Below, in pieces: positions 5,508 through 18,883 of a stretch of DNA of 38,137 nt; positions within the stretch are counted from its first letter, which is position 1; each line of letters starts with the position of its first letter. Origin of the DNA: a virus. A program made the position numbers and the translations under genes. The notes below the pieces were generated by a model. That model had not been told where the DNA came from and ran no database searches. It worked only from the letters and a program-made list of their open reading frames with translations. The DNA is taken from positions 1 through 38,137 of IMG/VR virus record IMGVR_UViG_3300025128_004916; one strand, 5' to 3'.

Positions 5508-5537
5508 TTGACATCCTTGGTCTTTTTGTGGCATAAT
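5508..5537 (+). promoter_or_regulatory. Promoter of the CTTGAC family (2 of 4), near-leaderless
   Basis: TTGACA (5508-5513), an 18-base spacer and CATAAT (5532-5537), preceded by AAAAAATAACTC. The expected transcription start, about seven bases after the -10 element, is at the ATG of the next gene (5545), so the transcript should have no or almost no leader. Confidence 0.8.
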
Positions 5538-5544
5538 ATTCGCT

Positions 5545-6006
5545 ATGACTAAAGAAGTAACAACCCGAATCAGCCCAGAAAGTATTGAGATCGCCAATGC
5601 CTACTTGGAGAAAGGTGATATCACTGCAGTCAGTACGGAACTCAAGGTTCCGCGCGATGTCGTGTCCGAGTACCTAAATAAGCGAGAAGTCAAAAAGTAT
5701 ATCGACTCCGTTTATTTAGATGCTGGGTACAGAAACAGATTCAAACTAGCGGAAGTCATGGATACGTTAATTGACAGAAAGCTAGAGGAAGCTGAAGAAA
5801 CAGAGATGTATTCAAGTAAAGATCTCGCAGATTTACTTCAGATGGCGCATAAGATGCGTATGGATGAAATTAAAGCACAGACAGAAGCGGACAAGGCGAG
5901 TGCGGCAACAGTTAAAACGCAAAACAATGTTATGATTCAAGCTGACGCACCTTTCGGACAGGGCAACTATGGAGCACTGATCGATAAACTTCTGAAAAGC
6001 GAATGA
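5545..6006 (+). CDS. terS: Putative terminase small subunit
   Basis: Protein of 153 residues. Residues about 15-50 form a helix-turn-helix (AYLEKGDITAVSTELKV, then PRDVVSEYLNKREVKKYI), followed by long charged helices (residues 55-115) and a C-terminal tail (APFGQGNYGALIDKLLKSE). This is the layout of small terminase subunits, which bind DNA at the packaging site, oligomerise and recruit the large subunit. Start ATG lies right at the expected transcription start and has no ribosome-binding site. It is the first gene of the long rightward unit, but the large subunit is 8 kb downstream, an unusual separation. The call rests on layout and position. Confidence 0.65.
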   Translation: MTKEVTTRISPESIEIANAYLEKGDITAVSTELKVPRDVVSEYLNKREVKKYIDSVYLDAGYRNRFKLAEVMDTLIDRKLEEAEETEMYSSKDLADLLQMAHKMRMDEIKAQTEADKASAATVKTQNNVMIQADAPFGQGNYGALIDKLLKSE

Positions 6007-6408: not shown

Positions 6409-6581
6409 CCTACCCTCCCACGGCTGTCTATCAAAGACCTTATAAACAAGTTCAGGTACTGCCTGGAAGTGACCCTGGAACAAAGAGATATATTGAAACT
6501 ATCTATAATGTCACCATCTACGATAGAGCCGGGGTTTTACAAAGAATAACGAATAGTTATACGGTGAATTATGTAGTGTGA
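6393..6581 (+). CDS. Hypothetical protein, 62 residues
   Basis: Short protein rich in beta-type residues and tyrosine (TYPPTAVYQRPYKQVQVLPG, then IETIYNVTIYDRAGVLQRI). Its ATG overlaps the previous gene by 16 bases, and its stop overlaps the next start (GTGATG). Not recognised. Confidence 0.5.
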   Translation: MEVLLTYPPTAVYQRPYKQVQVLPGSDPGTKRYIETIYNVTIYDRAGVLQRITNSYTVNYVV

Positions 6582-6859
6582 TGGAAATATTTGATCTAAT
6601 AGGCCAAGTAGGAGCACCAATTGCTGCCGCACTGATTATGGGCTATTTTATCTTTCTAACTTTAAAGAATCTATTAGAAGGAATATTAGATCAAGTAAAA
6701 ATGGTGGATACCTTTACTATGAGTTTAGTTAATCGAGTAAAGACTATGAACAACGACTTGATACGTATTGATACTTTAGTAAGTCATGCACTGCATGTGA
6801 ATCCAGATGTAGAAAGACTTGCTAGAGCTAACGGTAAAGAAGATGCAAGACGCGATTGA
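6581..6859 (+). CDS. One-helix membrane protein with coiled coil, holin-like (copy A)
   Basis: Protein of 92 residues. One transmembrane helix at about 9-30 (GQVGAPIAAALIMGYFIFLT), then a charged helix likely to be a coiled coil (LLEGILDQVKMV to MNNDLIRIDTLVSHAL). The topology resembles the small BhlA/UviB-type membrane proteins often called holins in phages. It is paralogous to the next gene: both carry GxPI...MGY and a later NDLIR motif. ATG 6581 overlaps the previous stop by one base; GTG 6578 is a possible alternative. Located shortly before the cell-wall hydrolase gene, so a lysis role is reasonable but unproven. Confidence 0.5.
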   Translation: MEIFDLIGQVGAPIAAALIMGYFIFLTLKNLLEGILDQVKMVDTFTMSLVNRVKTMNNDLIRIDTLVSHALHVNPDVERLARANGKEDARRD

Positions 6860-7130
6860 TGCAATACAGCAGTACGGGTTTCCTATTGTTATGGCGGTTG
6901 GAATGGGCTATTACATTTACTTCATTTGGAAGTTTGTGATAGACGATATAACTCCTAAACTGGAGGAATCTCATCTTAACTTAATTAAGGTTATAGACCA
7001 GATAAGGATGCTAGACAATGATTTGATTCGTTTACAGCAGAAAGTAAATGTGGTATTGGAATATGAAAAAACTCGCAATAATACTTCTGATTCTGAGCAG
7101 TCCAGCAACCGCGGATCAGATAACACATAG
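6843..7130 (+). CDS. One-helix membrane protein with coiled coil, holin-like (copy B)
   Basis: Protein of 95 residues, a diverged tandem copy of the preceding gene. Transmembrane helix at about 11-32 (YGFPIVMAVGMGYYIYFIWK), then a coiled-coil helix (KLEESHLNLIKVIDQIRMLD) with NDLIRLQQKV matching NDLIRIDTLV of copy A. The tail is Ser/Asn-rich and probably flexible. ATG 6843 lies inside the end of copy A (17-base overlap). The next gene's start is buried 68 bases inside this one. Two related subunits suggest a hetero-oligomeric membrane protein. Confidence 0.5.
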   Translation: MQDAIDAIQQYGFPIVMAVGMGYYIYFIWKFVIDDITPKLEESHLNLIKVIDQIRMLDNDLIRLQQKVNVVLEYEKTRNNTSDSEQSSNRGSDNT

Positions 7131-7554
7131 GTTTAAGAGTCCTTCCTTTTCGGGCATTAATCAGTCACAGCATTATTTAACTATTGAAAACCAAGAGGCT
7201 TCGAGAAAGCAGTCCATCTTAGATGGGATCGAAGCAGATTTAAAAGAGTTAGAGAGGGAGGAGAAGAATAGTACTGTTAATCGTTTTCTCCGTAATTTTG
7301 AAAGTCGGATTTACTCGAAACTTTCAAAATCACTAGTAGAGTCCCTTTTTTCAGCAGGAGATATTGATCCTAATTTAGACGGACGGTTTTACTTTCAATC
7401 GGAGGATTACTACATCCGTTATTATATGAGAGAAGACGGTACGTTAATCATGGAGACCTATCCAGGTAAGTATGGGGAGGAAGGGTCTTATGAAGATTGC
7501 GCAGCGGAAGATTTATGTACAAGGATTATTGTACCTGTGGATACTTTTAGTTAG
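7063..7554 (+). CDS. csgF: CsgF-like curli assembly factor
   Basis: Protein of 163 residues. In curli systems CsgF is secreted, binds the CsgG pore at the cell surface and couples secretion to nucleation. Signal peptide at residues 1-17 (MKKLAIILLILSSPATA), then DQITHRFKSPSFSGIN, matching the conserved mature CsgF start (F-R-x-P-x-F-x-G-N) that plugs the CsgG channel. The helical middle (FLRNFESRIYSKLSKSLVES) and the beta-rich C terminus (YYIRYYMREDGTLIMETYPG to TRIIVPV) also follow CsgF. A charged insert at about 55-80 makes it longer than the roughly 138-residue E. coli protein. Start chosen for the signal peptide; it overlaps the previous gene by 68 bases. Confidence 0.85.
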   Translation: MKKLAIILLILSSPATADQITHRFKSPSFSGINQSQHYLTIENQEASRKQSILDGIEADLKELEREEKNSTVNRFLRNFESRIYSKLSKSLVESLFSAGDIDPNLDGRFYFQSEDYYIRYYMREDGTLIMETYPGKYGEEGSYEDCAAEDLCTRIIVPVDTFS

Positions 7555-8305
7555 TAGCGGTTGTGCCGTTACTAACCACATAGCTGAAATTCAAGTTGAA
7601 GACGCAAAAGTTTCCCCCTTACAATTAGACAAGCTTTCAACGATACCTCTTCCTGAACAACAGCCCGTAGTGGCTGTATACGCAGGAGGTTTTACAGACT
7701 TAACAGGGCAAAGAAAAAGTAATTCTGACTTTGCCCTATTTTCAACAGCAGTTACACAAGGAGGAGAAGCCTATTTAATAAGAGCATTAAAACACACATC
7801 TAATGGTAACTTTTTTAGAGTAGTAGAACGTGTAGGCATAGATAGTATTAATAAAGAAAGGCAGATTATACGAAGTACCAGAAAGGACTTCAGAGACAAA
7901 AATCAAATGCAGCCTTTATTATTCGCTGGCCTAATAATGCAGGGCGGAATTATTAGTTATGATACTAATATAAAAACTGGGGGAGCGGGAGCTCGCTACC
8001 TCGGTATTTCAGCTTCTAGGCAGTATAGGGAGGACATAGTAATTGTCTCTCTCCGGACTATTTCAGTTAGTTCTGGAGAAATCCTAATGGAAGTTCTAGT
8101 TACTAAAGAGTTACTTTCTGTAGGAGTTGCAACTGACTTGTTCCGATTTTATGAAATGGGAACTGAGTTAATTGAGGTGGAAGCAGGATCTACTGTTAAC
8201 GAGAGCATGGCAATAGCCTTGCAAAAAGCAATAGAAACCGCAGTCTACGAAACTATACATGAAGGTAAGGCTAAAGGCTTTTGGGTCTTTAAAGATGAAG
8301 GGTGA
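7490..8305 (+). CDS. csgG: CsgG-like outer-membrane secretion channel
   Basis: Protein of 271 residues, near the family length. CsgG forms a nonameric outer-membrane lipoprotein pore for curli subunits. Segments following CsgG: VAVYAGGFTDLTGQRKSNSD (61-80), FSTAVTQGGEAYLIRALK (84-101), ERVGIDSINKERQIIRST (113-130), GGIISYDTNIKTGGAGARYL (152-171), VSLRTISVSSGEILMEVLVT (186-205) and ETAVYETIHEGKAKGFW (249-265). A signal sequence ends at SSGC25, a slightly unusual lipobox. By eye, the constriction Phe is kept (F84), while the Asn before it is Leu and the Tyr is not aligned. Start has AAGGG upstream and overlaps csgF. No CsgE or CsgD was found. Confidence 0.9.
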   Translation: MKIAQRKIYVQGLLYLWILLVSSGCAVTNHIAEIQVEDAKVSPLQLDKLSTIPLPEQQPVVAVYAGGFTDLTGQRKSNSDFALFSTAVTQGGEAYLIRALKHTSNGNFFRVVERVGIDSINKERQIIRSTRKDFRDKNQMQPLLFAGLIMQGGIISYDTNIKTGGAGARYLGISASRQYREDIVIVSLRTISVSSGEILMEVLVTKELLSVGVATDLFRFYEMGTELIEVEAGSTVNESMAIALQKAIETAVYETIHEGKAKGFWVFKDEG

Positions 8306-8310
8306 CCAAA

Positions 8311-9198
8311 ATGAAACGTTTAATGCTCGGGACCGTCGCACTAATTATGTTAGGGACGAACGTGTTTGCAGCAGACAACCAAATTTATATTACCCAGACT
8401 AACGCCACCAACTCTCAAATAGATATTGAGCAGTTAGGATCGGGTAACCTTGTTGCGGATAACGCGAGTGCAACAGGCACTGTAGATGCAGCAATGAATA
8501 TAAATGGTACAGGGTTAAATTTTAACTTAGATCAACGCGGGGACGGCAACTGGTTCCTTACTGATTTAAATGGCAATGACGGTGTTTATACTTTTGACTT
8601 TATAGGTAATACGAATAAGTTTATTGGACAGTTAAACTCTGCCGGTACTTATAGTATGAATGATATGAACTTTAACAGTGTTGTTACTGGAGGTACAAAT
8701 ACCTTTACAGTAAATATCGCAGAAGATGACAATGCTGGAGATGCTGATATAGATTGGATTTTTGACGGATCGGATAATACTGTAGACTTTAATGTAGCCA
8801 CTGATTATACGAACGCTCGAATAGCCGCTCTTATAGGCAACAATGGCGTAGTAGCAGGAGATACAGCAGACTCTATAGTAATCAATTGGGATATAGATGG
8901 AAGTAATAATGAAATTGATAATATAGTTAACTCTTCTCATGTAGTTCAAGACTGGGATATTACAGGTAGTTATAATAAAATAGACTACGCAGGATTAAAC
9001 TATGAAGATGCAAGCGCTGGTGATGGACATTACTCTAAGGTAGAACTCACGGGTAGTTATTGGGATATGAAATTAATCCAACAATCTGCCGAAGCAAGAG
9101 ACTGGCTAAGAATAACCGCTACAGGCGATGGGACGGCTCAATCTAATGCGACACTCTGTATTGTTCAAAGTGATGCTGGTACTAGCGCTACCTGTTAG
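8311..9198 (+). CDS. Curlin-like repeat protein, candidate CsgG substrate
   Basis: Protein of 295 residues with signal peptide MKRLMLGTVALIMLGTNVFA (1-20). The mature start, NQIYITQTNATNSQIDIEQL then GSGN, has the I-x-Q...N...I-x-Q-x-G-x-G-N spacing of CsgA/CsgB repeats. Later repeats are looser but periodic: LDQRGDGNWFLTD, DFIGNTNKFIGQL, DWIFDGSDNTVDFNV, NWDIDGSNNEIDNIV, DWDITGSYNKIDYAG. Strongly acidic and Asn/Gly-rich, as expected for an amyloid or beta-solenoid. Two Cys lie at the C-terminal end (CIVQSDAGTSATC). ATG 8311 has AAGGGTG upstream, directly after csgG. Secretion through CsgG and assembly on the cell surface are inferred from the repeats and gene order. Confidence 0.7.
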   Translation: MKRLMLGTVALIMLGTNVFAADNQIYITQTNATNSQIDIEQLGSGNLVADNASATGTVDAAMNINGTGLNFNLDQRGDGNWFLTDLNGNDGVYTFDFIGNTNKFIGQLNSAGTYSMNDMNFNSVVTGGTNTFTVNIAEDDNAGDADIDWIFDGSDNTVDFNVATDYTNARIAALIGNNGVVAGDTADSIVINWDIDGSNNEIDNIVNSSHVVQDWDITGSYNKIDYAGLNYEDASAGDGHYSKVELTGSYWDMKLIQQSAEARDWLRITATGDGTAQSNATLCIVQSDAGTSATC

Positions 9199-10228
9199 TG
9201 CTAACACCAACATCGGAAACGTAACAGAGCTAGAAGGCTCTGCGGCTGTGTTTAGGGAAGAAGAACTAAACAATGCCAAATTAGACTTTGAAATAGAAAG
9301 CTATGATGATGTAAGGACTGCCCAAGGTAGAATCGCTCTGCAATTTTTAGACGATTCTACCTTGAAACTAACTGAGCATTCTTCTATTGTAATAGATGAG
9401 TTTGTATACGATGCAAATCCTTCTAACTCAAAGTTAGCACTTAATTTTGCCTCAGGCACTGCTCGCTTTATAAGCGGTGCTTTAGGCAAGATTGATAAAG
9501 AGAATATAAAAATAACTACTCCTACAGCAGAGATTGCGATTAGGGGTACAGACTTTACCGCGACGGTGGACGAGATTGGGCAGACTTTAATAATACTTCT
9601 GCCAGATGCACTAGGACTATCTTCAGGAGAGATATTAGTTTCTTCTCTTGGAGGACAAGTAGTTTTGAACAGGCCCTATCAAGCTACTACTGTTTCTACT
9701 GTTGATTCTTCCCCGTCGCAACCAAAAATACTAGATATAACTTTAGCAATGATTGATAATATGCTAATTGTTTCTCCCCCGAAGGAGGATGTCTCCGAGG
9801 AACAAGCGCAATCCAGAACTAAAGATATTCTAGATTTTGATGAGCTAGATCAAGACCTTCTCGAAGAAGACTTACTCGAGGATGAGCTTGTAGAGTTTGA
9901 AGAGTTAGACATTGATTTTTTAAATGTTGACTTCCTTACAGACTTATTAGATAACTTCGATGATCTAGAAGAAAAAGATGAAGACTTACTTAAAGAGGAT
10001 ACGGCTTTTGAAATCGTAGGAACTTCTTTAGGATTTGATTCTGATACGCAAATAAATACTTTTTTACAGGAGGAATATATAGTGTTATATCGCCAAGTTA
10101 GTAACTCATTCAGGTTAGAACTATCTTCTGACTCTTCTTATAACATTCATCTTGACGACGAGGGCAAGAGAGAGGATATTTTAATTAATAGTGGTAGTGA
10201 TGTTTATATTAAGATTAAACAACAATGA
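9146..10228 (+). CDS. Exported FecR-domain protein with acidic tail
   Basis: Protein of 360 residues. Signal peptide at 1-19 (MRHSVLFKVMLVLALPVSA), then a FecR-type domain at about 22-150: GNVTELEGSAAVFR, YDDVRTAQGRIALQFLDDST, FASGTARFISGALGK, ITTPTAEIAIRGTDFTATVD. Such domains act in the periplasm, classically in signalling to FecI-type sigma factors, but stand-alone forms are common and poorly understood. Residues about 215-290 are an extreme acidic/leucine repeat (LLEEDLLEDELVEFEELDID), then a beta-rich C terminus. ATG 9146 overlaps the curlin-like gene by 53 bases; ATG 9173 would leave a shorter signal peptide. Its place before the CHASE2 cyclase suggests a sensing partner (inference). 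Confidence 0.8.
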   Translation: MRHSVLFKVMLVLALPVSANTNIGNVTELEGSAAVFREEELNNAKLDFEIESYDDVRTAQGRIALQFLDDSTLKLTEHSSIVIDEFVYDANPSNSKLALNFASGTARFISGALGKIDKENIKITTPTAEIAIRGTDFTATVDEIGQTLIILLPDALGLSSGEILVSSLGGQVVLNRPYQATTVSTVDSSPSQPKILDITLAMIDNMLIVSPPKEDVSEEQAQSRTKDILDFDELDQDLLEEDLLEDELVEFEELDIDFLNVDFLTDLLDNFDDLEEKDEDLLKEDTAFEIVGTSLGFDSDTQINTFLQEEYIVLYRQVSNSFRLELSSDSSYNIHLDDEGKREDILINSGSDVYIKIKQQ

Positions 10229-10674
10229 AAAAACTACTACTTCTAATACTTTTCCCGTGCTCGGCATATGCTGAATTCGACACGGACTTATTATGTCTAG
10301 CCCATAATATCTATCACGAAGCACGCTCTCAGCCTATAGCTGAGAAAATAGCTATCTCCCACGTTGTGTTAAATAGAGTACAGCATGAGAAATATCCAGA
10401 AAGCGTGTGCTCAGTAATATATCAAGCGAAGAAAAAAGATACTCGTATACTACGCAATCAGTGCCAGTTTTCTTGGTACTGTGATGGGAAACTAGATTTT
10501 CCTACTAATAGAAAAGCTTGGACTGAGAGTGTGAATGCCGCTGCTATTGCTAAAGCAGTCAATTTTGATATTACAGAAGGAGCTACGCATTATCATGCTA
10601 ATTATGTAGATCCTAAGTGGGCATCCAAGCTGCACTTTACTATAGCTATTGGCAGACATAGGTTCTACAAATGA
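10225..10674 (+). CDS. SleB-type cell-wall hydrolase (endolysin candidate)
   Basis: Protein of 149 residues with signal peptide MKKLLLLILFPCSAYA (1-16). The remainder is a complete Hydrolase_2/SleB domain: LAHNIYHEARSQPIAEKIAI (25-44) with probable catalytic Glu32, VLNRVQHEKYPESVCSVIYQ (48-67), QCQFSWYCDG (79-88), GATHYHANYVDPKWA (119-133) and IGRHRFYK at the end. These enzymes cleave peptidoglycan glycan strands. The signal peptide means export by the host Sec system rather than simple holin release, so timing of lysis must be controlled differently. ATG overlaps the FecR gene stop, and its own stop overlaps the cyclase start. Confidence 0.88.
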   Translation: MKKLLLLILFPCSAYAEFDTDLLCLAHNIYHEARSQPIAEKIAISHVVLNRVQHEKYPESVCSVIYQAKKKDTRILRNQCQFSWYCDGKLDFPTNRKAWTESVNAAAIAKAVNFDITEGATHYHANYVDPKWASKLHFTIAIGRHRFYK

Positions 10675-12449
10675 GGTGGCTAGTAGGACTACTGTTAATC
10701 GTCGGCCTAGTAGGAATAAAACTACTAGACCCTTACCCTGTTGAAGTTTTAAGATTAAAAACTTTTGATTATTTCATATCTACACTAGAACCTCACTCCT
10801 CTAATATTATTACTTTAATATCTGTAGATGATGAGAGTCTGAATGCTATAGGACAATGGCCTTGGCCAAGAAATGCTTTCTGTAGCTTCTTAGGTTCCGC
10901 AGTCACGGGTGTAACTGTACTGTTCCCAGAAGAAGATAGGTACGGTACAGATAAAGATTTTTCAAATTGTATGGAATCCGTGGTTGTTTCTACAGCAGCT
11001 ACTAACTCAAGGATAGGAGGTAAACCTCCTCATGTCGGTACAGCCTCTATCGGCGCAGACCCTTTGCCATATTTGACAAATTTTGATGGGGTGCTAAATA
11101 ATGTGGAAGAAATCGAGAACAGCGCTTCAGGAAATGGAATAACTTCTACTGCATATGAGATTGATAGCTTAGTTCGCAGAGTCCCTTTAGTATTTAACAT
11201 AGGAGACACTTTATATCCTTCGTTCTCTATGGAAATTCTTAGAAACTTAGCAGGTGCTCCTTCATATGCTATTAAAACAAATGACGTAGGAGTAGAAGCT
11301 TTACGAATTAAAAACTATCCGATTATAAAAACAGACTCTCAAGCAAGAATATGGGTTAATTGGAATATTTCTTTCAAGAATATATCTGCCGCAGAGTACT
11401 TTAAGAACCCAGATCCTAATACTGTAGCAATTATTGGAGTTACAGCAAAAGGGGCTTCAACTCTTGTAGCTACTCCTGCGGGACTAAAAGCCCCTCACGA
11501 GATACAAGCTGCGGTATTAGCAACTTTAACCGAAGGAGTAGCTATATCTAGGCCTGAAACGGCTGTTACAACCGAGGCTATAGCACTGTTAGTAGGGCTT
11601 TCAGTGCTTTTATTGTTAAGTTTTAACATATATGCTTCTCTTCCTGCACTTCTATTAATGGTAGCAGGAGCAAGTTGGTATACTTTAAATACATTTACCA
11701 CTACTAACACCCTATTAGACCCTTCATTTGGTATTGTGGCAGCTATATTACTGTGGGCTACTTCTTCTTTTACTAACTATTTAAGGGAATTTAAGCTAAA
11801 ACAGCAAATCAAAAAACAATTCGAGCACTATCTTGACCCTGGCATGGTTAAAAAATTACAGGACAATCCGAGTCTACTGAGATTAGGAGGCGAAAGACGA
11901 GAAATGACATTCCTGTTCTCTGATATACGAGGATTCACCCCAATATCAGAGAGATACAAGGAAGACCCAGAAGGATTAGTTGAATTAGTAAATATATTTT
12001 TAACTAACCAGTCAAATGTCATCTTGTCACATGGAGGAACTATTGATAAATTTATGGGAGACTGTATTATGGCGTTCTGGAACGCTCCTATAGACGATCC
12101 TAACCATAAAGAGAACGCAATAAAAGCTGCTATTGAAATGAGAATAGCATTAGAGGAGTTAAATAATGTTCTCAGGACCGAAAGAGGCATTGAAATCAAT
12201 ACGGGAGTCGGAATCAATACTGGACCGTGCATTGTCGGTAACATGGGTAGTGATAGTCGCTTCGACTATAGTGTTATTGGCGATGCAGTTAACCTTGCTG
12301 CTCGCCTAGAGAGTAGTTGCAAAACTTATGAAACAGATCTTATCATATCCGAGTACAGTAAAGTCGATGGGTATGAGTATACGTACTTAGACGATGCCCT
12401 GGTCAAGGGAAAGTCTGAACCCGTTAAAATATATACCATACAAAAATAG
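10671..12449 (+). CDS. Membrane CHASE2-class III adenylate cyclase
   Basis: Protein of 592 residues. A first membrane helix (3-20) leads to a periplasmic CHASE2 sensor domain at about 25-290 (VEVLRLKTFDYFISTLEP, ITLISVDDESLNAIGQWPWP, RRVPLVFNIGDTLYPSFSME). Two or three helices follow (about 300-365), then a linker (FEHYLDPGMVKKLQ) and the catalytic domain (410-592). Metal-binding Asp418 (FSDIRGFT) and Asp464 (DKFMGD), adenine-contacting Lys460 and Asp538 (YSVIGDAVN), and transition-state Asn541 and Arg545 are all present. It should therefore make cAMP from ATP in the cytoplasm in response to a periplasmic signal. A phage-encoded cyclase is very unusual. ATG overlaps the hydrolase stop (ATGA). 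Confidence 0.92.
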   Translation: MRWLVGLLLIVGLVGIKLLDPYPVEVLRLKTFDYFISTLEPHSSNIITLISVDDESLNAIGQWPWPRNAFCSFLGSAVTGVTVLFPEEDRYGTDKDFSNCMESVVVSTAATNSRIGGKPPHVGTASIGADPLPYLTNFDGVLNNVEEIENSASGNGITSTAYEIDSLVRRVPLVFNIGDTLYPSFSMEILRNLAGAPSYAIKTNDVGVEALRIKNYPIIKTDSQARIWVNWNISFKNISAAEYFKNPDPNTVAIIGVTAKGASTLVATPAGLKAPHEIQAAVLATLTEGVAISRPETAVTTEAIALLVGLSVLLLLSFNIYASLPALLLMVAGASWYTLNTFTTTNTLLDPSFGIVAAILLWATSSFTNYLREFKLKQQIKKQFEHYLDPGMVKKLQDNPSLLRLGGERREMTFLFSDIRGFTPISERYKEDPEGLVELVNIFLTNQSNVILSHGGTIDKFMGDCIMAFWNAPIDDPNHKENAIKAAIEMRIALEELNNVLRTERGIEINTGVGINTGPCIVGNMGSDSRFDYSVIGDAVNLAARLESSCKTYETDLIISEYSKVDGYEYTYLDDALVKGKSEPVKIYTIQK

Positions 12450-12452
12450 TTC

Positions 12453-12482
12453 TTGACAAAACCGCACTATTTTTGGTATAAT
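12453..12482 (+). promoter_or_regulatory. Promoter of the CTTGAC family (3 of 4)
   Basis: TTGACA (12453-12458), an 18-base spacer and TATAAT (12477-12482), preceded by CAAAAATAGTTC and with GG before the -10. It starts the unit leading to the lipase and large terminase genes. Confidence 0.8.
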
Positions 12483-12526: not shown

Positions 12527-12781
12527 ATGAGTAAATTAGGATCAATTCCTAAAGACAGACTACAAATAGCCACTGTGATTACTCTAGTGATACAGCTTTC
12601 TGGCATTGTCTGGTGGGCCTCGAGCGCGCAGGCATCGATAGACCGTCTAGAAGGATTACACTCAGCCGTTGACCATGATAGAATAGAGTTTTTTCAAAGA
12701 ATGTCTGTTGTTGAAACAAAAGTTGAAGCAAACAAACAAATCTTAGAAAGACTCGAAAATAAAATCGACAAGATGCAATAG
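12527..12781 (+). CDS. One-helix membrane protein with coiled coil
   Basis: Protein of 84 residues with a clear AGGAG site upstream. A transmembrane helix at about 13-33 (IATVITLVIQLSGIVWWASS) is followed by a long amphipathic helix (IEFFQRMSVVETKVEANKQI, then LERLENKIDKMQ) forming a coiled coil. The topology fits small phage membrane proteins annotated as holins or inner-membrane spanins. No lipoprotein partner typical of an outer spanin was found beside it. First gene after the 12453 promoter. Confidence 0.6.
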   Translation: MSKLGSIPKDRLQIATVITLVIQLSGIVWWASSAQASIDRLEGLHSAVDHDRIEFFQRMSVVETKVEANKQILERLENKIDKMQ

Positions 12782-12952: not shown

Positions 12953-12992
12953 ATGTGAAAATTGCGAATGCAGCCCTTGTAAGTGTGGCTAA
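12945..12992 (+). CDS. Cysteine-rich 15-residue peptide
   Basis: The frame encodes MCKCENCECSPCKCG: six Cys in 15 residues, spaced CxCxxCxCxxCxC as in metal-thiolate peptides. ATG 12945 lies within the last codons of the previous gene, and the stop TAA (12990-12992) overlaps the lipase start as TAATG, so it fills the gap between two genes exactly and may be translated by coupling. A metal-binding, metallothionein-like role is inferred from composition alone. Its small size leaves a real chance that it is only a linker. Confidence 0.5.
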   Translation: MCKCENCECSPCKCG

Positions 12993-13720
12993 TGAATAAA
13001 AACTTTGAATACGCCAACTACGCAGCACTTGCGTATTTCGATCCTGGAGAGTCTAAGGACTCTGCATTTGAATATCGGACTATTTTTGTAGAGTCTGACA
13101 ATGCAGAAGCTTGGATCTTTTTTACTCCTGAAGTAAATGTTATTTCTTGTAGAGGCACAGAGCCTTCCCAGTTGAAAGATATAACTGCGGATCTTAAATT
13201 TTGGCGTATCGATCCAGCCGGAACGGGAGAAAAAGTACACTCAGGTTTTTGGTCTGAGGCTTTTTCTCTCTTTCCTAAGATAATAAGAAACTTACCTGAT
13301 GACAGTAAGCCATTAGCAATTACAGGACACAGTCTTGGTGGTGCAATGGCTGTTATTATGGCAGGTTTCTTACTAAAATCTGGTTATGATGTTAAAGATC
13401 TTTACACGTATGGGCAACCTCGTGTAGGTAACAAGCAATTCTGTAAAAGAATTGAGGCGGGGTGTAATTGGCAACGATTCGTAAACAATAACGACATAGT
13501 TCCTAGAGTCCCTCTTAAAATGGGCCGTCTTTTTCATGACGGGGGTAACCTTAATTATATTAATACTTATGGCCAAATTCGAAATTTAACTTGGTGGCAA
13601 AGTACAAAGGACTCTTGGAGAGGAAGGAAGGCTGCATGGAAAAAGAAACAGTGGTTTGATTCCTTTTATGACCATTCAGCAACTTTATACAGGGACCTAC
13701 TAGATGATGGACGCACATGA
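12992..13720 (+). CDS. Class 3 lipase (alpha/beta hydrolase)
   Basis: Protein of 242 residues without a signal peptide. The nucleophile elbow ITGHSLGGAMA (110-120) has catalytic Ser114, followed by the family motif YTYGQPRVGN (138-147), Asp168 (NNNDIVPRVP) and His228 (YDHSA), giving a complete triad of the Lipase_3 family. The early VISCRGTEPSQLKDITADL segment (50-68) is also typical. Such enzymes hydrolyse ester bonds in acylglycerols or phospholipids. Lacking an export signal, it probably acts in the cytoplasm on the inner membrane or after lysis begins. A role in membrane breakdown is inferred from location. The start overlaps the Cys-rich peptide stop. Confidence 0.88.
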   Translation: MNKNFEYANYAALAYFDPGESKDSAFEYRTIFVESDNAEAWIFFTPEVNVISCRGTEPSQLKDITADLKFWRIDPAGTGEKVHSGFWSEAFSLFPKIIRNLPDDSKPLAITGHSLGGAMAVIMAGFLLKSGYDVKDLYTYGQPRVGNKQFCKRIEAGCNWQRFVNNNDIVPRVPLKMGRLFHDGGNLNYINTYGQIRNLTWWQSTKDSWRGRKAAWKKKQWFDSFYDHSATLYRDLLDDGRT

Positions 13721-13940: not shown

Positions 13941-15242
13941 ATGTTAGAAATAAGTAGAGCTGATGTAGTAGGAACTAATTTAATGTCCTACTCTGCTGAA
14001 GAAAGATTTATAAAATTACCCGTTATTCCTTACTTGGAGCTTCTTGGGATAGAAGCAATTCCTTCTCAGGTAAGTATTATAAATGCTATAAATAATCCTA
14101 AGTATCGTTTTGTTTCAGGAGCCCTTTCCCGACGACAGGGTAAAACCTATATAGCTAATATAATTGGACAACTAACAGTTTTGATTCCAGGAAGTAATGT
14201 ACTACTTATGTCCCCAAATTATTCGCTTTCTCAAATTTCTTTTGACCTACAGAGAAATTTGATAAAGCACTTTGATTTAGAAGTAGTTAGGGATAATGCA
14301 AAAGATAGAGTTATAGAACTCTCTAATAACTCTACTATACGAATGGGGTCTATAAATCAAGTAGACTCGGTAGTTGGTAGAAGCTATGACTTAATTATTT
14401 TTGACGAAGCAGCTTTGACAGATGGTAGAGAAGCTTTTAATGTAGCTCTAAGACCCACACTAGATAAAGACAATAGTAAAGCATTGTTTATATCTACTCC
14501 GCGAGGACGAAATAACTGGTTCGCGGATTTCTTTCATAGGGGCTTCAACGATGAATTTCCTGAGTGGATATCTATAAAAGCAACTTATCACGAGAATCCT
14601 AGACTAAGTGAAGACGATATATCAGAAGCTAAGAAATCTATGTCTACGGCAGAATTTGCCCAAGAATACTTAGCTGATTTTAATACTTACGAAGGACAGA
14701 TTTGGAATTTTGATTACGAAGCCTGCGTTACTAATACCGACCAGTTTAAACCAGAAGGTATGGATATATTCGCAGGATTAGACGTAGGATACAAAGACCC
14801 CACTGCATTTTGTGTTATAGCATATGATTGGGATAGTGAACTTTATTATATATTAGATGAGTATATAGACTCAGAGAGGACAACGGAGCAACATGCCACA
14901 GAAATTAGAAAACTTATTGACAAATGGGATATCGACTATATTTATATCGACTCGGCAGCACAACAGACTCGATTTGACTTTGCCCAGAACTACGATATAT
15001 CCACAATTAACGCCAAGAAGTCAGTTTTGGATGGCATTGCACACGTTGCAAATATAGTTGACAATAAGAAACTTTTAGTGAGCCAGAAGTGCGAGCATAC
15101 ACTAGAATGTCTGGATCAATATCAATGGGACCCTAATCCTAACTTATTAAGAGAGAAGCCTAAGCATGACAGGTTCTCTCATATGTCCGATGCACTAAGG
15201 TACGCACTATACAGCTTTGAAGTTTCCGCAGGAACTTTTTAA
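13941..15242 (+). CDS. terL: Terminase large subunit
   Basis: Protein of 433 residues, the DNA-packaging motor and genome-cutting nuclease. ATPase part: adenine-contact and Walker A segment ALSRRQGKTYIA (61-72), Walker B LIIFDEAAL (151-159) and motif III FISTPRGR (183-190). Nuclease part: GLDVGYKDPTA (279-289) with Asp281, YIYIDSAAQ (333-341) with Asp337, and MSDALRYALYSF (415-426) with Asp417, the usual metal-binding acidic triad. No ribosome-binding site precedes the ATG, so coupling to the previous gene is likely. Followed by a promoter and an HNH nuclease gene, then portal. Confidence 0.95.
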   Translation: MLEISRADVVGTNLMSYSAEERFIKLPVIPYLELLGIEAIPSQVSIINAINNPKYRFVSGALSRRQGKTYIANIIGQLTVLIPGSNVLLMSPNYSLSQISFDLQRNLIKHFDLEVVRDNAKDRVIELSNNSTIRMGSINQVDSVVGRSYDLIIFDEAALTDGREAFNVALRPTLDKDNSKALFISTPRGRNNWFADFFHRGFNDEFPEWISIKATYHENPRLSEDDISEAKKSMSTAEFAQEYLADFNTYEGQIWNFDYEACVTNTDQFKPEGMDIFAGLDVGYKDPTAFCVIAYDWDSELYYILDEYIDSERTTEQHATEIRKLIDKWDIDYIYIDSAAQQTRFDFAQNYDISTINAKKSVLDGIAHVANIVDNKKLLVSQKCEHTLECLDQYQWDPNPNLLREKPKHDRFSHMSDALRYALYSFEVSAGTF

Positions 15243-15689: not shown

Positions 15690-16869
15690 TAACCTATTTA
15701 AAAGTGACGAAGAGAAAGCAAATCCCGCTCAGGAGTTTATAGCTAGAGAAGAGGGCTTTGGTCTTTCAACTACTGAAAACTATGTAAACTATGCAAATGC
15801 ATATGAACAGTTTGAAGTAGTTAATCGGGCCGTAAACATGGTTGTAGACGATGTTGCGGAAATACGAGTAGATGTAGGTAGAAAGCTAGGATTGACTCCG
15901 GTCTTCCCTAATATTAGAAAATCAAGAGTTGCTTTACTATTAAATACAGAACCTAATCCGTTTCAAGATGTAAATACTTTTAAAAGAAATCTTATAATTG
16001 ATTTACTAATAGACGGAAATATCTTTATTTACTTTGATGGAGCACATTTGTATCAGCTCCCCGCTAGAAATATTGAGATTGAAACAGACGAGAAAACGTA
16101 CATAAAGAATTTTGTATACGAAGGTAAACTGGATTATAGTCCTCAAGAGATTATACATATAAAAGAGAACTCCTTTAACTCTTTCTATAGAGGAGTTCCT
16201 CGGTTAAAGCCTGCGTATAAACGAATGCAACTACTAGGCTCAATGAGAAAGTTTCAGGAAAACTTCTTCAAGAATGGAGCAGTGCCAGGATTAGTAATTA
16301 AGAGTCCTAACACTTTGAGTGAAAAGATTAAAGAAAGAATGCTTGCAGCATGGAGGTCAAGATACAATCCAGAAGCAGGCGGACATCGTCCTCTTATTTT
16401 AGATGGCGGACTGGAAGTAACTAGTTTAAATGAAGTGAATTTTAGGGAGTTAAACTTTCAAGAATCCATAAGAGAGAATGAAAAAATTATCTTAGAAGCA
16501 ATAGGGGTTCCTCCTATTCTTCTTGATAGTGGCAACAATGCAAATATTAGACCCAATCATAGGCTATACTACTTAGAGACTATACTGCCTATCGTACGAA
16601 AGATTAATTTTGCATTTGAAAGGTATTTTGGTTATGATCTGCAAGAAGATGTTAGTAATATTCCTGCTCTCCGACCAGAATTACAAGATGAAGCCGCTTA
16701 TTACTCAACTTTAGTAAATGGCGGTGTAATGAGTCCAAACGAAGCTAGAGACGCCCTGAGATTAGATCCAGTTGATGGACATGACGATCTCAGAGTACCT
16801 GCAAATATTGCAGGATCGGCGGCAAATCCTTCAGAGGGCGGAAGGCCGGAAGAGAATACAGATGAATAA
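15676..16869 (+). CDS. HK97-type portal protein
   Basis: Protein of 397 residues that forms the dodecameric ring through which DNA enters the head. Recognised from the SPP1/HK97 portal pattern: YEQFEVVNRAVNMVVDDVAE (44-63), IIDLLIDGNIFIYFDG (107-122), the aromatic LYQLPARNI turn, RGVPRLKPAYKRMQLL, the NFFKNGAVPGLVIKSP region, and the late EAIGVPPILL...LYYLETILPIV helix. The N-terminal start GMV/MAW lies in the HNH overlap. It is followed directly by the fused protease-capsid gene (8-base overlap). Confidence 0.92.
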   Translation: MAWYSNLFKSDEEKANPAQEFIAREEGFGLSTTENYVNYANAYEQFEVVNRAVNMVVDDVAEIRVDVGRKLGLTPVFPNIRKSRVALLLNTEPNPFQDVNTFKRNLIIDLLIDGNIFIYFDGAHLYQLPARNIEIETDEKTYIKNFVYEGKLDYSPQEIIHIKENSFNSFYRGVPRLKPAYKRMQLLGSMRKFQENFFKNGAVPGLVIKSPNTLSEKIKERMLAAWRSRYNPEAGGHRPLILDGGLEVTSLNEVNFRELNFQESIRENEKIILEAIGVPPILLDSGNNANIRPNHRLYYLETILPIVRKINFAFERYFGYDLQEDVSNIPALRPELQDEAAYYSTLVNGGVMSPNEARDALRLDPVDGHDDLRVPANIAGSAANPSEGGRPEENTDE

Positions 16870-18883
16870 AATTTTTAATTTAACCTCCGTATTTAAAGCG
16901 CAGCCATCAGATGATGGCTCTGTAAAGATACGGGGTTATGCAAGTACAAATGATACGGACAGGGCAGGCGATGTAATCGAAAAAGACGCTTGGCTAAAAG
17001 GTGGTCTTGACAACTTCAAAAGCAATCCTATCCTATTGTTTAACCACGATTATGATACTCCAATTGGTAAAGCCACTGCGCTTGAAGTAACCGAGTATGG
17101 GTTGAAAATCGAGGGAATGATCTCCAAATCGGCAGGTAAAATTGCTGAGATGGTGAAGGAGGGCATCCTAGGCGCTTTTAGCGTTGGTTTCCGAATTAAG
17201 GATGCTGATAATATTGAGGAAACCGATGGTTTAAGGATCAAGGATGCGGAACTGTTTGAGGTGTCAGTTGTTTCTGTCCCCGCAAATCAATCCGCTATCT
17301 TCTCTGTCGCGAAATCGTTCGATACAGATGAAGAGTACGCGGACTGGAAAAAACAGTTTGTTAACGATCCTCATGTTGAAATAGATCAGTCCGAAAAGGA
17401 CTCATCAAAAGAAACAGCAAATGCTGTCTTCGGAGAAAATATAATGTCTGATAAAGACTTTGATCTCGAAGAGTTTGCTAAAGAAGTAGCCCGTAAGACT
17501 GCCGCTGAAATTCAGATGAAACAAGCTGAAGAAGCAACGGCTGCAAAGGCAGAGGCTGAGAAAGTCGCTGCTGATGCTGAAGTCCAAAAGGCTGCGGAAG
17601 AAGCTGAACTCGAAGAAAAGAAAGCTGAGGTGCAAGCTGTAGTACAGGGCGTAACGACAGGCGCGGAACGTCTCATCTCAGATTTGGAAGAAAGGGTTTC
17701 CAAAAATCAGGAGGACTTGGGCGACGTAGTTGAAGAGCTTCGAAATGAAATTAAAGAGAAGTCTCAAGAAATTCAACACATCCGTGAGTCTAAGCGAGTT
17801 TTTGGTGATCGTCAAGCAGGCGATTGGAAGAAAGCCTTCAGTCAAGATATTGATGAAGCTTACTTCTTAGCAAAAGCTACTGGTAAAGGTTATGAAACTG
17901 ACTTTGCCAAAGATGTCATGCAAAAAGTGAATGAGCACTCTGGTGTTCAGGTATCTTCTGCTGACTTCGAACAAGAAGTTTCAAGTAATATTGAGCGTGA
18001 TATTCAAGTTGAGCTAGTATTGGCTCCTCTTTTCCGCGAAATTCAAATGCGTTCAGCGACTCAGATCCTTCCCATCCTGCCGGATGCTGGATATGCTGAG
18101 TTTACCGCTAACCAAACTGCTTCGGGCTCTAGCCCTAAAGGTAACTTGGAAGCGCGAGGCGATACTTATGGCGCGCCTTTCGGTGGTGTCGATTTGACAG
18201 AGCGCACTCTCTCAACCAAAAAGCTGATTTCTCAGTCTTATCTTGGTAACGAAACTGAAGAGGATGCAATCATTCCGGTTCTTCCTTTGATTCGTGAGAG
18301 CGTTATTCGTTCACATGCTCGTGCAGTTGAGAATATGATTCTCGTTGGTAATAGTGCTGACGGTGCCTTTGGTACTGGTGGTGCGGCTCCTGACGGTATT
18401 ATTACTCTTGCTGCGGCAGATTCTGATAAAACTCAATCTGCTACTGCATTCGCCTCAGAATCTCTTACTGCTGCTCAACTTTTGGCAGCTCGTAAGAATA
18501 TGGGTAAGTATGGCATTCGTCCGGATCAGGTAGTTTATATCGTATCTGTGGCTGAATATCATAATTTGATTGCAGATGCTGCGTATGCAGACGCTAGCCA
18601 AGTCGAAGGGCTTGCTACCAAGCTGACTGGTGAAGTTGGTCGCGTTTACGGTTCTCCCGTAATCGTTTCTGACGAATTCGCAGCAGCAGCGGTAAGTAAG
18701 TACTACGCGGTAGCGGTTAATACGCGTAACTTTGTAATTCCACGTCTCCGTGGTGTTACGGTTGAAAGTGATTATGAAGTCGCTAATCAACGTCGAGTAC
18801 TGGTCGCTAGCCAGCGTCTTGGTTTCGTTGATATCATTAATGGTGCTACTAATAAGTGGGCACTTCAGTATAAAGCTTCTTAA
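16862..18883 (+). CDS. Fused prohead protease and HK97-type major capsid protein
   Basis: Protein of 673 residues joining three parts. Residues 1-165 are an S78 prohead protease: RGYASTNDTDRAGDVI, NHDYDTPIG with probable catalytic His62, GAFSVGF with Ser107, and EVSVVSVPANQSA. Residues about 195-330 are a coiled-coil delta/scaffold segment (Ala/Glu/Lys-rich). Residues about 340-673 are an HK97-fold capsid subunit, including the LFREIQMRSATQILPILPDA region and GVDLTERTLSTKKLISQSYL. The start at 16862 is chosen because the extended frame lies inside the portal gene. An in-frame ATG with GGAG upstream at 17444 (codon 195) could give a separate 479-residue scaffold-capsid protein. Codon use looks tuned for high expression. 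Confidence 0.92.
   Translation: MNKIFNLTSVFKAQPSDDGSVKIRGYASTNDTDRAGDVIEKDAWLKGGLDNFKSNPILLFNHDYDTPIGKATALEVTEYGLKIEGMISKSAGKIAEMVKEGILGAFSVGFRIKDADNIEETDGLRIKDAELFEVSVVSVPANQSAIFSVAKSFDTDEEYADWKKQFVNDPHVEIDQSEKDSSKETANAVFGENIMSDKDFDLEEFAKEVARKTAAEIQMKQAEEATAAKAEAEKVAADAEVQKAAEEAELEEKKAEVQAVVQGVTTGAERLISDLEERVSKNQEDLGDVVEELRNEIKEKSQEIQHIRESKRVFGDRQAGDWKKAFSQDIDEAYFLAKATGKGYETDFAKDVMQKVNEHSGVQVSSADFEQEVSSNIERDIQVELVLAPLFREIQMRSATQILPILPDAGYAEFTANQTASGSSPKGNLEARGDTYGAPFGGVDLTERTLSTKKLISQSYLGNETEEDAIIPVLPLIRESVIRSHARAVENMILVGNSADGAFGTGGAAPDGIITLAAADSDKTQSATAFASESLTAAQLLAARKNMGKYGIRPDQVVYIVSVAEYHNLIADAAYADASQVEGLATKLTGEVGRVYGSPVIVSDEFAAAAVSKYYAVAVNTRNFVIPRLRGVTVESDYEVANQRRVLVASQRLGFVDIINGATNKWALQYKAS

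Follow-up and report, generated by a model that had tools for sequence, protein, structure and literature searches.

The window, meaning the whole stretch of DNA analysed here, is a 38,137-base IMG/VR virus record that carries curli-type secretion and signalling genes between its terminase genes. From its sequence the carrier, a marine phage, is classed as a T5-like siphovirus because of its head and tail genes (portal, fused protease-capsid, tail terminator and distal tail protein, Dit) and the identities of TerL, whose nearest isolates are T5-like Vibrio, Pectobacterium and Serratia phages at 47-49% identity. The prohead protease and major capsid protein are apparently fused in one 703-aa ORF (16772-18883). 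The genes and sites of the locus are listed below.

5508-5537, +, promoter-like site TTGACA-18-CATAAT with TG before the -10, upstream of terS (consensus scan only)
5545-6006, +, terminase small subunit, terS, left flank (phrog_3802, E 2.4e-37)
6578-6859, +, small transmembrane and helical protein, type 1, 93 aa (phrog_18771)
6819-7130, +, small transmembrane and helical protein, type 2, 103 aa (AlphaFold2 single long helix, pLDDT 89.6)
7063-7554, +, CsgF-like protein with signal peptide and N-terminal F-K-S-P-S-F-S-G motif (PF10614, E 6e-10; alignment)
7472-8305, +, CsgG outer-membrane pore lipoprotein (PF03783, E 3e-48)
8302-9198, +, curlin-repeat-like exported protein, predicted beta-solenoid (family Curlin_rpt matches, GxxN/Q columns, AlphaFold2)
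9128-10228, +, exported FecR-domain protein without a sigma-regulator part (PF04773, E 7e-12, residues 60-152; phrog_37870)
10225-10674, +, SleB-type cell-wall hydrolase (Hydrolase_2) with signal peptide (PF07486, E 3e-23; phrog_938 endolysin, E 6e-21)
10671-12449, +, CHASE2-sensor class III (IIIb-type) adenylate cyclase (PF05226, 2e-28; PF00211, Guanylate_cyc, 1e-19)
12453-12482, +, full-consensus extended sigma-70-like promoter TTGACA-18-TATAAT with TG, right behind the stop codon of the cyclase gene (consensus scan only)
12527-12781, +, 84-aa transmembrane and coiled-coil protein, resident neighbour (HMM matches in L099, L100, L102 and L103)
12983-13720, +, class 3 lipase-like protein, resident neighbour (PF01764, E 4e-24; retained in L099)
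13941-15242, +, terminase large subunit, terL, T5-like, right flank (phrog_2, E 4e-48)

An earlier note on this DNA had described a cassette of six overlapping or abutting genes, from csgF to the cyclase gene, between the two terminase genes. All six ORFs are present on the plus strand in that order and at those positions, five of them with clear Pfam matches; terS lies to the left and terL to the right, and 4-base start/stop overlaps occur at csgG/curlin, FecR/SleB and SleB/cyclase. The limits had been drawn slightly too narrowly, as the two small transmembrane ORFs ahead of csgF also belong to the module. The site at 5508-5537 is a candidate promoter of the transcription unit, and the sigma-70-like sequence after the cyclase gene suggests that a new unit starts at 12453-12482. 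A terminator scan gave a result not above chance.

Proteins of the module

Sequence features of CsgF, CsgG and the curlin-like protein, and intact cyclase residues, support the earlier note. The CsgG profile matched solved E. coli CsgG structures over the full length (E 9e-66). In an alignment of 13 CsgF sequences, F24, P27, F29 and G31 of the N-terminal F-x-x-P-x-F-x-G peptide are invariant; the N-terminal peptide of E. coli CsgF sits inside CsgG. A CsgG gene with 38% identity also occurs in OR851715.1, a 1.5-kb record named as a Salmonella phage and possibly host sequence.

The curlin-like protein of the window itself falls below the Pfam cut-off, and Curlin_rpt (PF07012) is matched by 19 of 42 aligned family members (best 2e-5). 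Q, G and N positions that never vary in the family alignment form GxxN/Q turns spaced as in curlin turns, and GxxN occurs 8 times in the window protein against 3.4 expected, a two-fold excess (P 0.011). AlphaFold2 models the protein as a beta-solenoid (pLDDT 82, pTM 0.81); a fold search of this model against the PDB returned nothing at E <= 0.001, the best E being 0.2. Methylophilales phage Melnitz, a carrier of the module, was stated to be without a curlin subunit (PMC9004378). Our sequence-based assignment contrasts with that statement on Melnitz and agrees with PMC9599517.

The FecR protein has an N-terminus that resembles a signal peptide by eye, and PF04773 was the sole domain found. The traits of a sigma regulator, namely a cytoplasmic anti-sigma part and a transmembrane helix in the protein and a sigma factor gene next to it, were not found. 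The last gene is predicted to encode a class III adenylate cyclase with an N-terminal CHASE2 domain and an intact active site (D418, K460, D464, S534, N541 and R545). The metal-binding Asp pair, the purine Lys, the class IIIb Ser/Thr and the Asn/Arg pair are retained in 73-77 of 77 phage cyclases.

Each small upstream protein has one hydrophobic segment and a long helix. The upstream gene of published phage modules was labelled 'histidine kinase' (PMC9599517), and we equate the small genes of the window with those genes by position. This label was rejected: neither HisKA/HATPase nor any other kinase family was matched in Pfam by 35 members, and the structure model is a single helix. By contrast with that label, 17 of the 35 members matched the holin family phrog_4898 (best 2.6e-5) and 10 weakly matched YvrJ. 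The small proteins thus resemble holin-like proteins, for which hole formation is putative. Both the rejection of the kinase label and the holin likeness are new relative to the published annotation.

Conservation and relatives

Scans of viral contigs yielded >590 CsgG relatives, 80 of them retained for analysis, and the comparison set comprised about 100 phage fragments. With our own profiles, the common order in the fetched loci was one or two small membrane genes, csgF, csgG, curlin, FecR, an optional second curlin gene and the cyclase gene, and the genes stay together in >90 contigs, in support of the earlier note. Among phage-type contigs with enough sequence, from which a few bacterial-looking loci were excluded by inspection, curlin follows csgG in 97 of 97, FecR is present in 89 of 89 and small transmembrane genes precede csgF in 97 of 98, the exception being L187. 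The cyclase gene is found in 47 of 55, so that some phage modules do without it. Median dN/dS was 0.10-0.14 for every module gene tested, values that point to purifying selection.

No CsgG pore without a curlin substrate was seen in the 97 phage-type contigs; a CsgG-only pinholin is disfavoured because curlin always accompanies CsgG. Pfam scans matched no module ORF to the CsgE gate, and CsgC, CsgD and a separate nucleator were not identified with the module. An ungated CsgG could in principle admit larger molecules during infection, a nutrient or cofactor uptake hypothesis raised in PMC7029224 and PMC9599517 and consistent with the lack of a CsgE match. It would leave the invariable curlin substrate and CsgF unexplained, and inner-membrane uptake partners were not seen among the recurrent neighbours; we consider it improbable.

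The earlier note knew of no phage in which a curlin-like substrate, FecR and a cyclase occur together. That claim was wrong, because Pelagibacter phage HTVC008M, Melnitz and published uncultivated pelagiphages carry the module: in HTVC008M and Melnitz, csgF and csgG are accompanied by genes for a curlin-associated protein, FecR, another curlin-like protein and the cyclase. The csgF/csgG pair has been described in pelagimyophages (PMC7029224), and for pelagiphages of the podovirus and myovirus types PMC9599517 reported a module that also includes FecR, 'histidine kinase' and cyclase genes. The window shares its gene order with these type VIII secretion modules (HTVC008M, Melnitz and HTVC023P-type podoviruses; PMC9599517, PMC9004378, PMC7029224) and differs in that its carrier is a T5-like siphovirus, its module lies between terS and terL, and a SleB-type hydrolase occupies the position of the second curlin gene; the small proteins, moreover, are not kinases by sequence. 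With bacterial curli (csgBAC-csgDEFG) it has in common the CsgG pore, CsgF with a conserved CsgG-binding motif and a curlin-type repeat substrate, although the phage substrate repeats are longer and less regular, FecR and a cyclase are attached, and no CsgC, CsgD or CsgE was identified.

The pairing of FecR with the cyclase has bacterial counterparts. Campylobacterota are a published case of FecR genes clustered with CHASE2-cyclase genes (PMC9239204), and S. meliloti has a FecR gene close to cyaD1 that was dispensable for the tested signal (PMC5498481). In at least 24 of 59 alphaproteobacterial genomes that have both, FecR lies <=4 kb from a CHASE2-cyclase gene, against about 0.4 expected, the genome counts being lower bounds. 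Judged by gene position, FecR beside a CHASE2-cyclase is therefore a recurrent bacterial pair, and the clusters of Campylobacterota, S. meliloti and other Alphaproteobacteria place the same kind of exported FecR-domain protein beside a CHASE2 cyclase. The phage pair differs in lying inside a secretion operon, and the phage cyclase is shorter (592 aa, against mostly 735-850 aa in the bacterial clusters).

On the CsgG tree the T5-like carriers require at least 4 changes, which rules against a single acquisition by T5-like phages; the module would therefore have been acquired or exchanged several times. In L180 (5082-6111), IscU-like and IscA-like iron-sulfur assembly ORFs lie between terS and the small membrane genes, as seen by eye. 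Four different curli-module contigs (L183, L184, L188 and L189) come from one Rhodobacteraceae MAG (Water_Bin34) and probably belong to phages that were assigned to the same bin. T5-like relatives repeatedly encode several small, very basic proteins in the stretch from the module to terL (L018:9040-9672; L241:12502-13690).

The resident SleB hydrolase and neighbouring lysis genes

The earlier note had counted SleB, whose gene lies between FecR and the cyclase in the window, as a member of the cassette, which the comparison does not bear out. L099, a relative with a 94% identical TerL, has terS, a 62-aa gene, SleB, small genes, the transmembrane protein, the lipase and terL, and no curli module; the 84-aa transmembrane and coiled-coil gene is thus also retained in a module-free relative. 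In L102 the order is FecR, second curlin, SleB, cyclase; L103 has SleB and no cyclase. A search of 23 related records found Hydrolase_2 in 3 and not in the other 20. Because of the gene content of L099, L102 and L103, SleB is best read as a resident lysin, not constant in the module, around which the module was inserted. In L099 (1259-3917) the slot between SleB and the resident transmembrane gene holds 4-5 other exported or membrane proteins.

The absence of the module from so close a relative is what might be expected of accidental, functionless passenger genes. Against this stand dN/dS of about 0.1 throughout, intact catalytic residues and an order retained in >90 contigs, and we find the idea scarcely credible.

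The earlier note had also placed the cassette in what looked like a lysis region. This holds for many relatives, in which the module abuts endolysin and spanin genes; most T5-like carriers have no such neighbours. A lysozyme, spanin or SleB gene lies inside the module or <=2.5 kb from it in 16 of 29 dereplicated phage loci, counted where both flanks were present and after removal of near-identical CsgG copies. Counted by distance from the module across 86 loci, there are 58 lysozyme or spanin genes at up to 2.5 kb, 0 at 2.5-5 kb and 2 at 5-10 kb (301, 197 and 156 kb of sequence searched, respectively), and all 58 are on the strand of the module. A PF00959 lysozyme often adjoins the module in other carriers, and when the neighbours were clustered, lysozyme was joined by Rz-like spanins of the inner (phrog_739, 5e-12) and outer membrane type (phrog_812, 3e-13) and by a membrane protein of 159 aa (phrog_1544). 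In L015 the cyclase gene is followed after 4 bases by an Rz-like spanin gene, then by o-spanin and lysozyme genes. T4-like carriers and most T5-like carriers have no endolysin genes next to the module, and a search of the cassette phages for the T5-type endolysin peptidase PF13539 gave nothing above the cut-off. Lysis genes are not mentioned in the main texts of PMC9599517 and PMC7029224; PMC9004378 proposed a pinholin or secretin and argued for a lysis role from other neighbours. The module shares with phage lysis cassettes (endolysin, Rz/Rz1 spanins) a neighbourhood, a strand, holin-like small proteins and, in the window, a SleB endolysin homologue, whereas its core proteins are those of secretion and signalling, not of lysis.

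Such a neighbourhood could mean that the module is itself a lysis-timing device, in which CsgG, the holin-like proteins, FecR and the cyclase would sense the envelope or open it and, together with the neighbouring endolysin and spanins, determine when the cell lyses, the curlin being a plug or trigger and not a fibre. Support comes from the loci with an endolysin or spanin gene within or near the module, such as L015, from the likeness of the constant small proteins to holins, from the presence of SleB in the unit of the window and from the published pinholin idea (PMC9004378). Yet L099 retains SleB and its neighbours without the module, so that lysis in that lineage does not depend on it, in T4-like carriers the module lies away from lysis genes, and the curlin is always present and under purifying selection. 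CsgG, furthermore, acts in the outer membrane and holins act in the inner membrane. We regard a lysis-timing device as a serious rival, on the unlikely side.

A possible role in late infection

The reading we prefer, to which we give an even chance, is a phage type VIII (curli) module that would be expressed late, secrete a fibre, sense the envelope through its cyclase and act in time with lysis. The analysis itself establishes which genes are present and in what conserved order, that active-site residues are intact, that selection is purifying, and that there are curlin-type turns and lysis genes nearby. From these we infer that the module is expressed late, that its product is secreted and forms fibres, that FecR is coupled to the cyclase and that the phage benefits. 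Late in infection, phage-made CsgG would form an outer-membrane pore with CsgF, through which the curlin-type beta-solenoid protein would be exported, to assemble on the infected cell or be shed. FecR, once exported, and the CHASE2-cyclase in the inner membrane would act as an envelope-sensing pair taken from bacteria, converting a periplasmic or outer-membrane state into cAMP, and the one or two small holin-like proteins would be constant phage-specific partners at the inner membrane. Since the module stands beside endolysin and spanin genes in many phages, its expression is probably timed with lysis. The module goes unmentioned in a published transcriptome of infection (PMC12753301).

The phage may benefit through a changed cell surface, or through aggregation or capture of hosts; the authors of the Melnitz study saw no clumping of infected cells (PMC9004378). 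A surface fibre or altered outer membrane might instead shield infected cells from competing phages, as proposed in PMC9599517, and such superinfection exclusion fits the surface location. Genes linked to lysis and expressed late would come at a bad time for exclusion, and we see little chance that this is the function. A bolder reading, which we think rather unlikely, is an extended marine-phage lysis operon in which holin-like proteins, an amyloid-export pore with its amyloid-like substrate, a FecR-CHASE2 cAMP sensor, endolysin and spanins would together time or shape bursting and leave sticky amyloid around the virions.

Phage curli modules have previously been reported as common in the ocean. 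What is new here is the module in a T5-like siphovirus, between terS and terL, and SleB as a resident lysin. Also new are the frequent lysis genes nearby, the turns and predicted beta-solenoid of the curlin-like protein, the intact cyclase site with its low dN/dS, and FecR beside CHASE2-cyclase as a recurrent pair in bacteria. Together, the lysis neighbourhood, the rejection of the kinase label, the resident SleB and the bacterial FecR-CHASE2 pairing reduce the range of functions to be considered for the module, and those that are left can be tested in two cultured phages.
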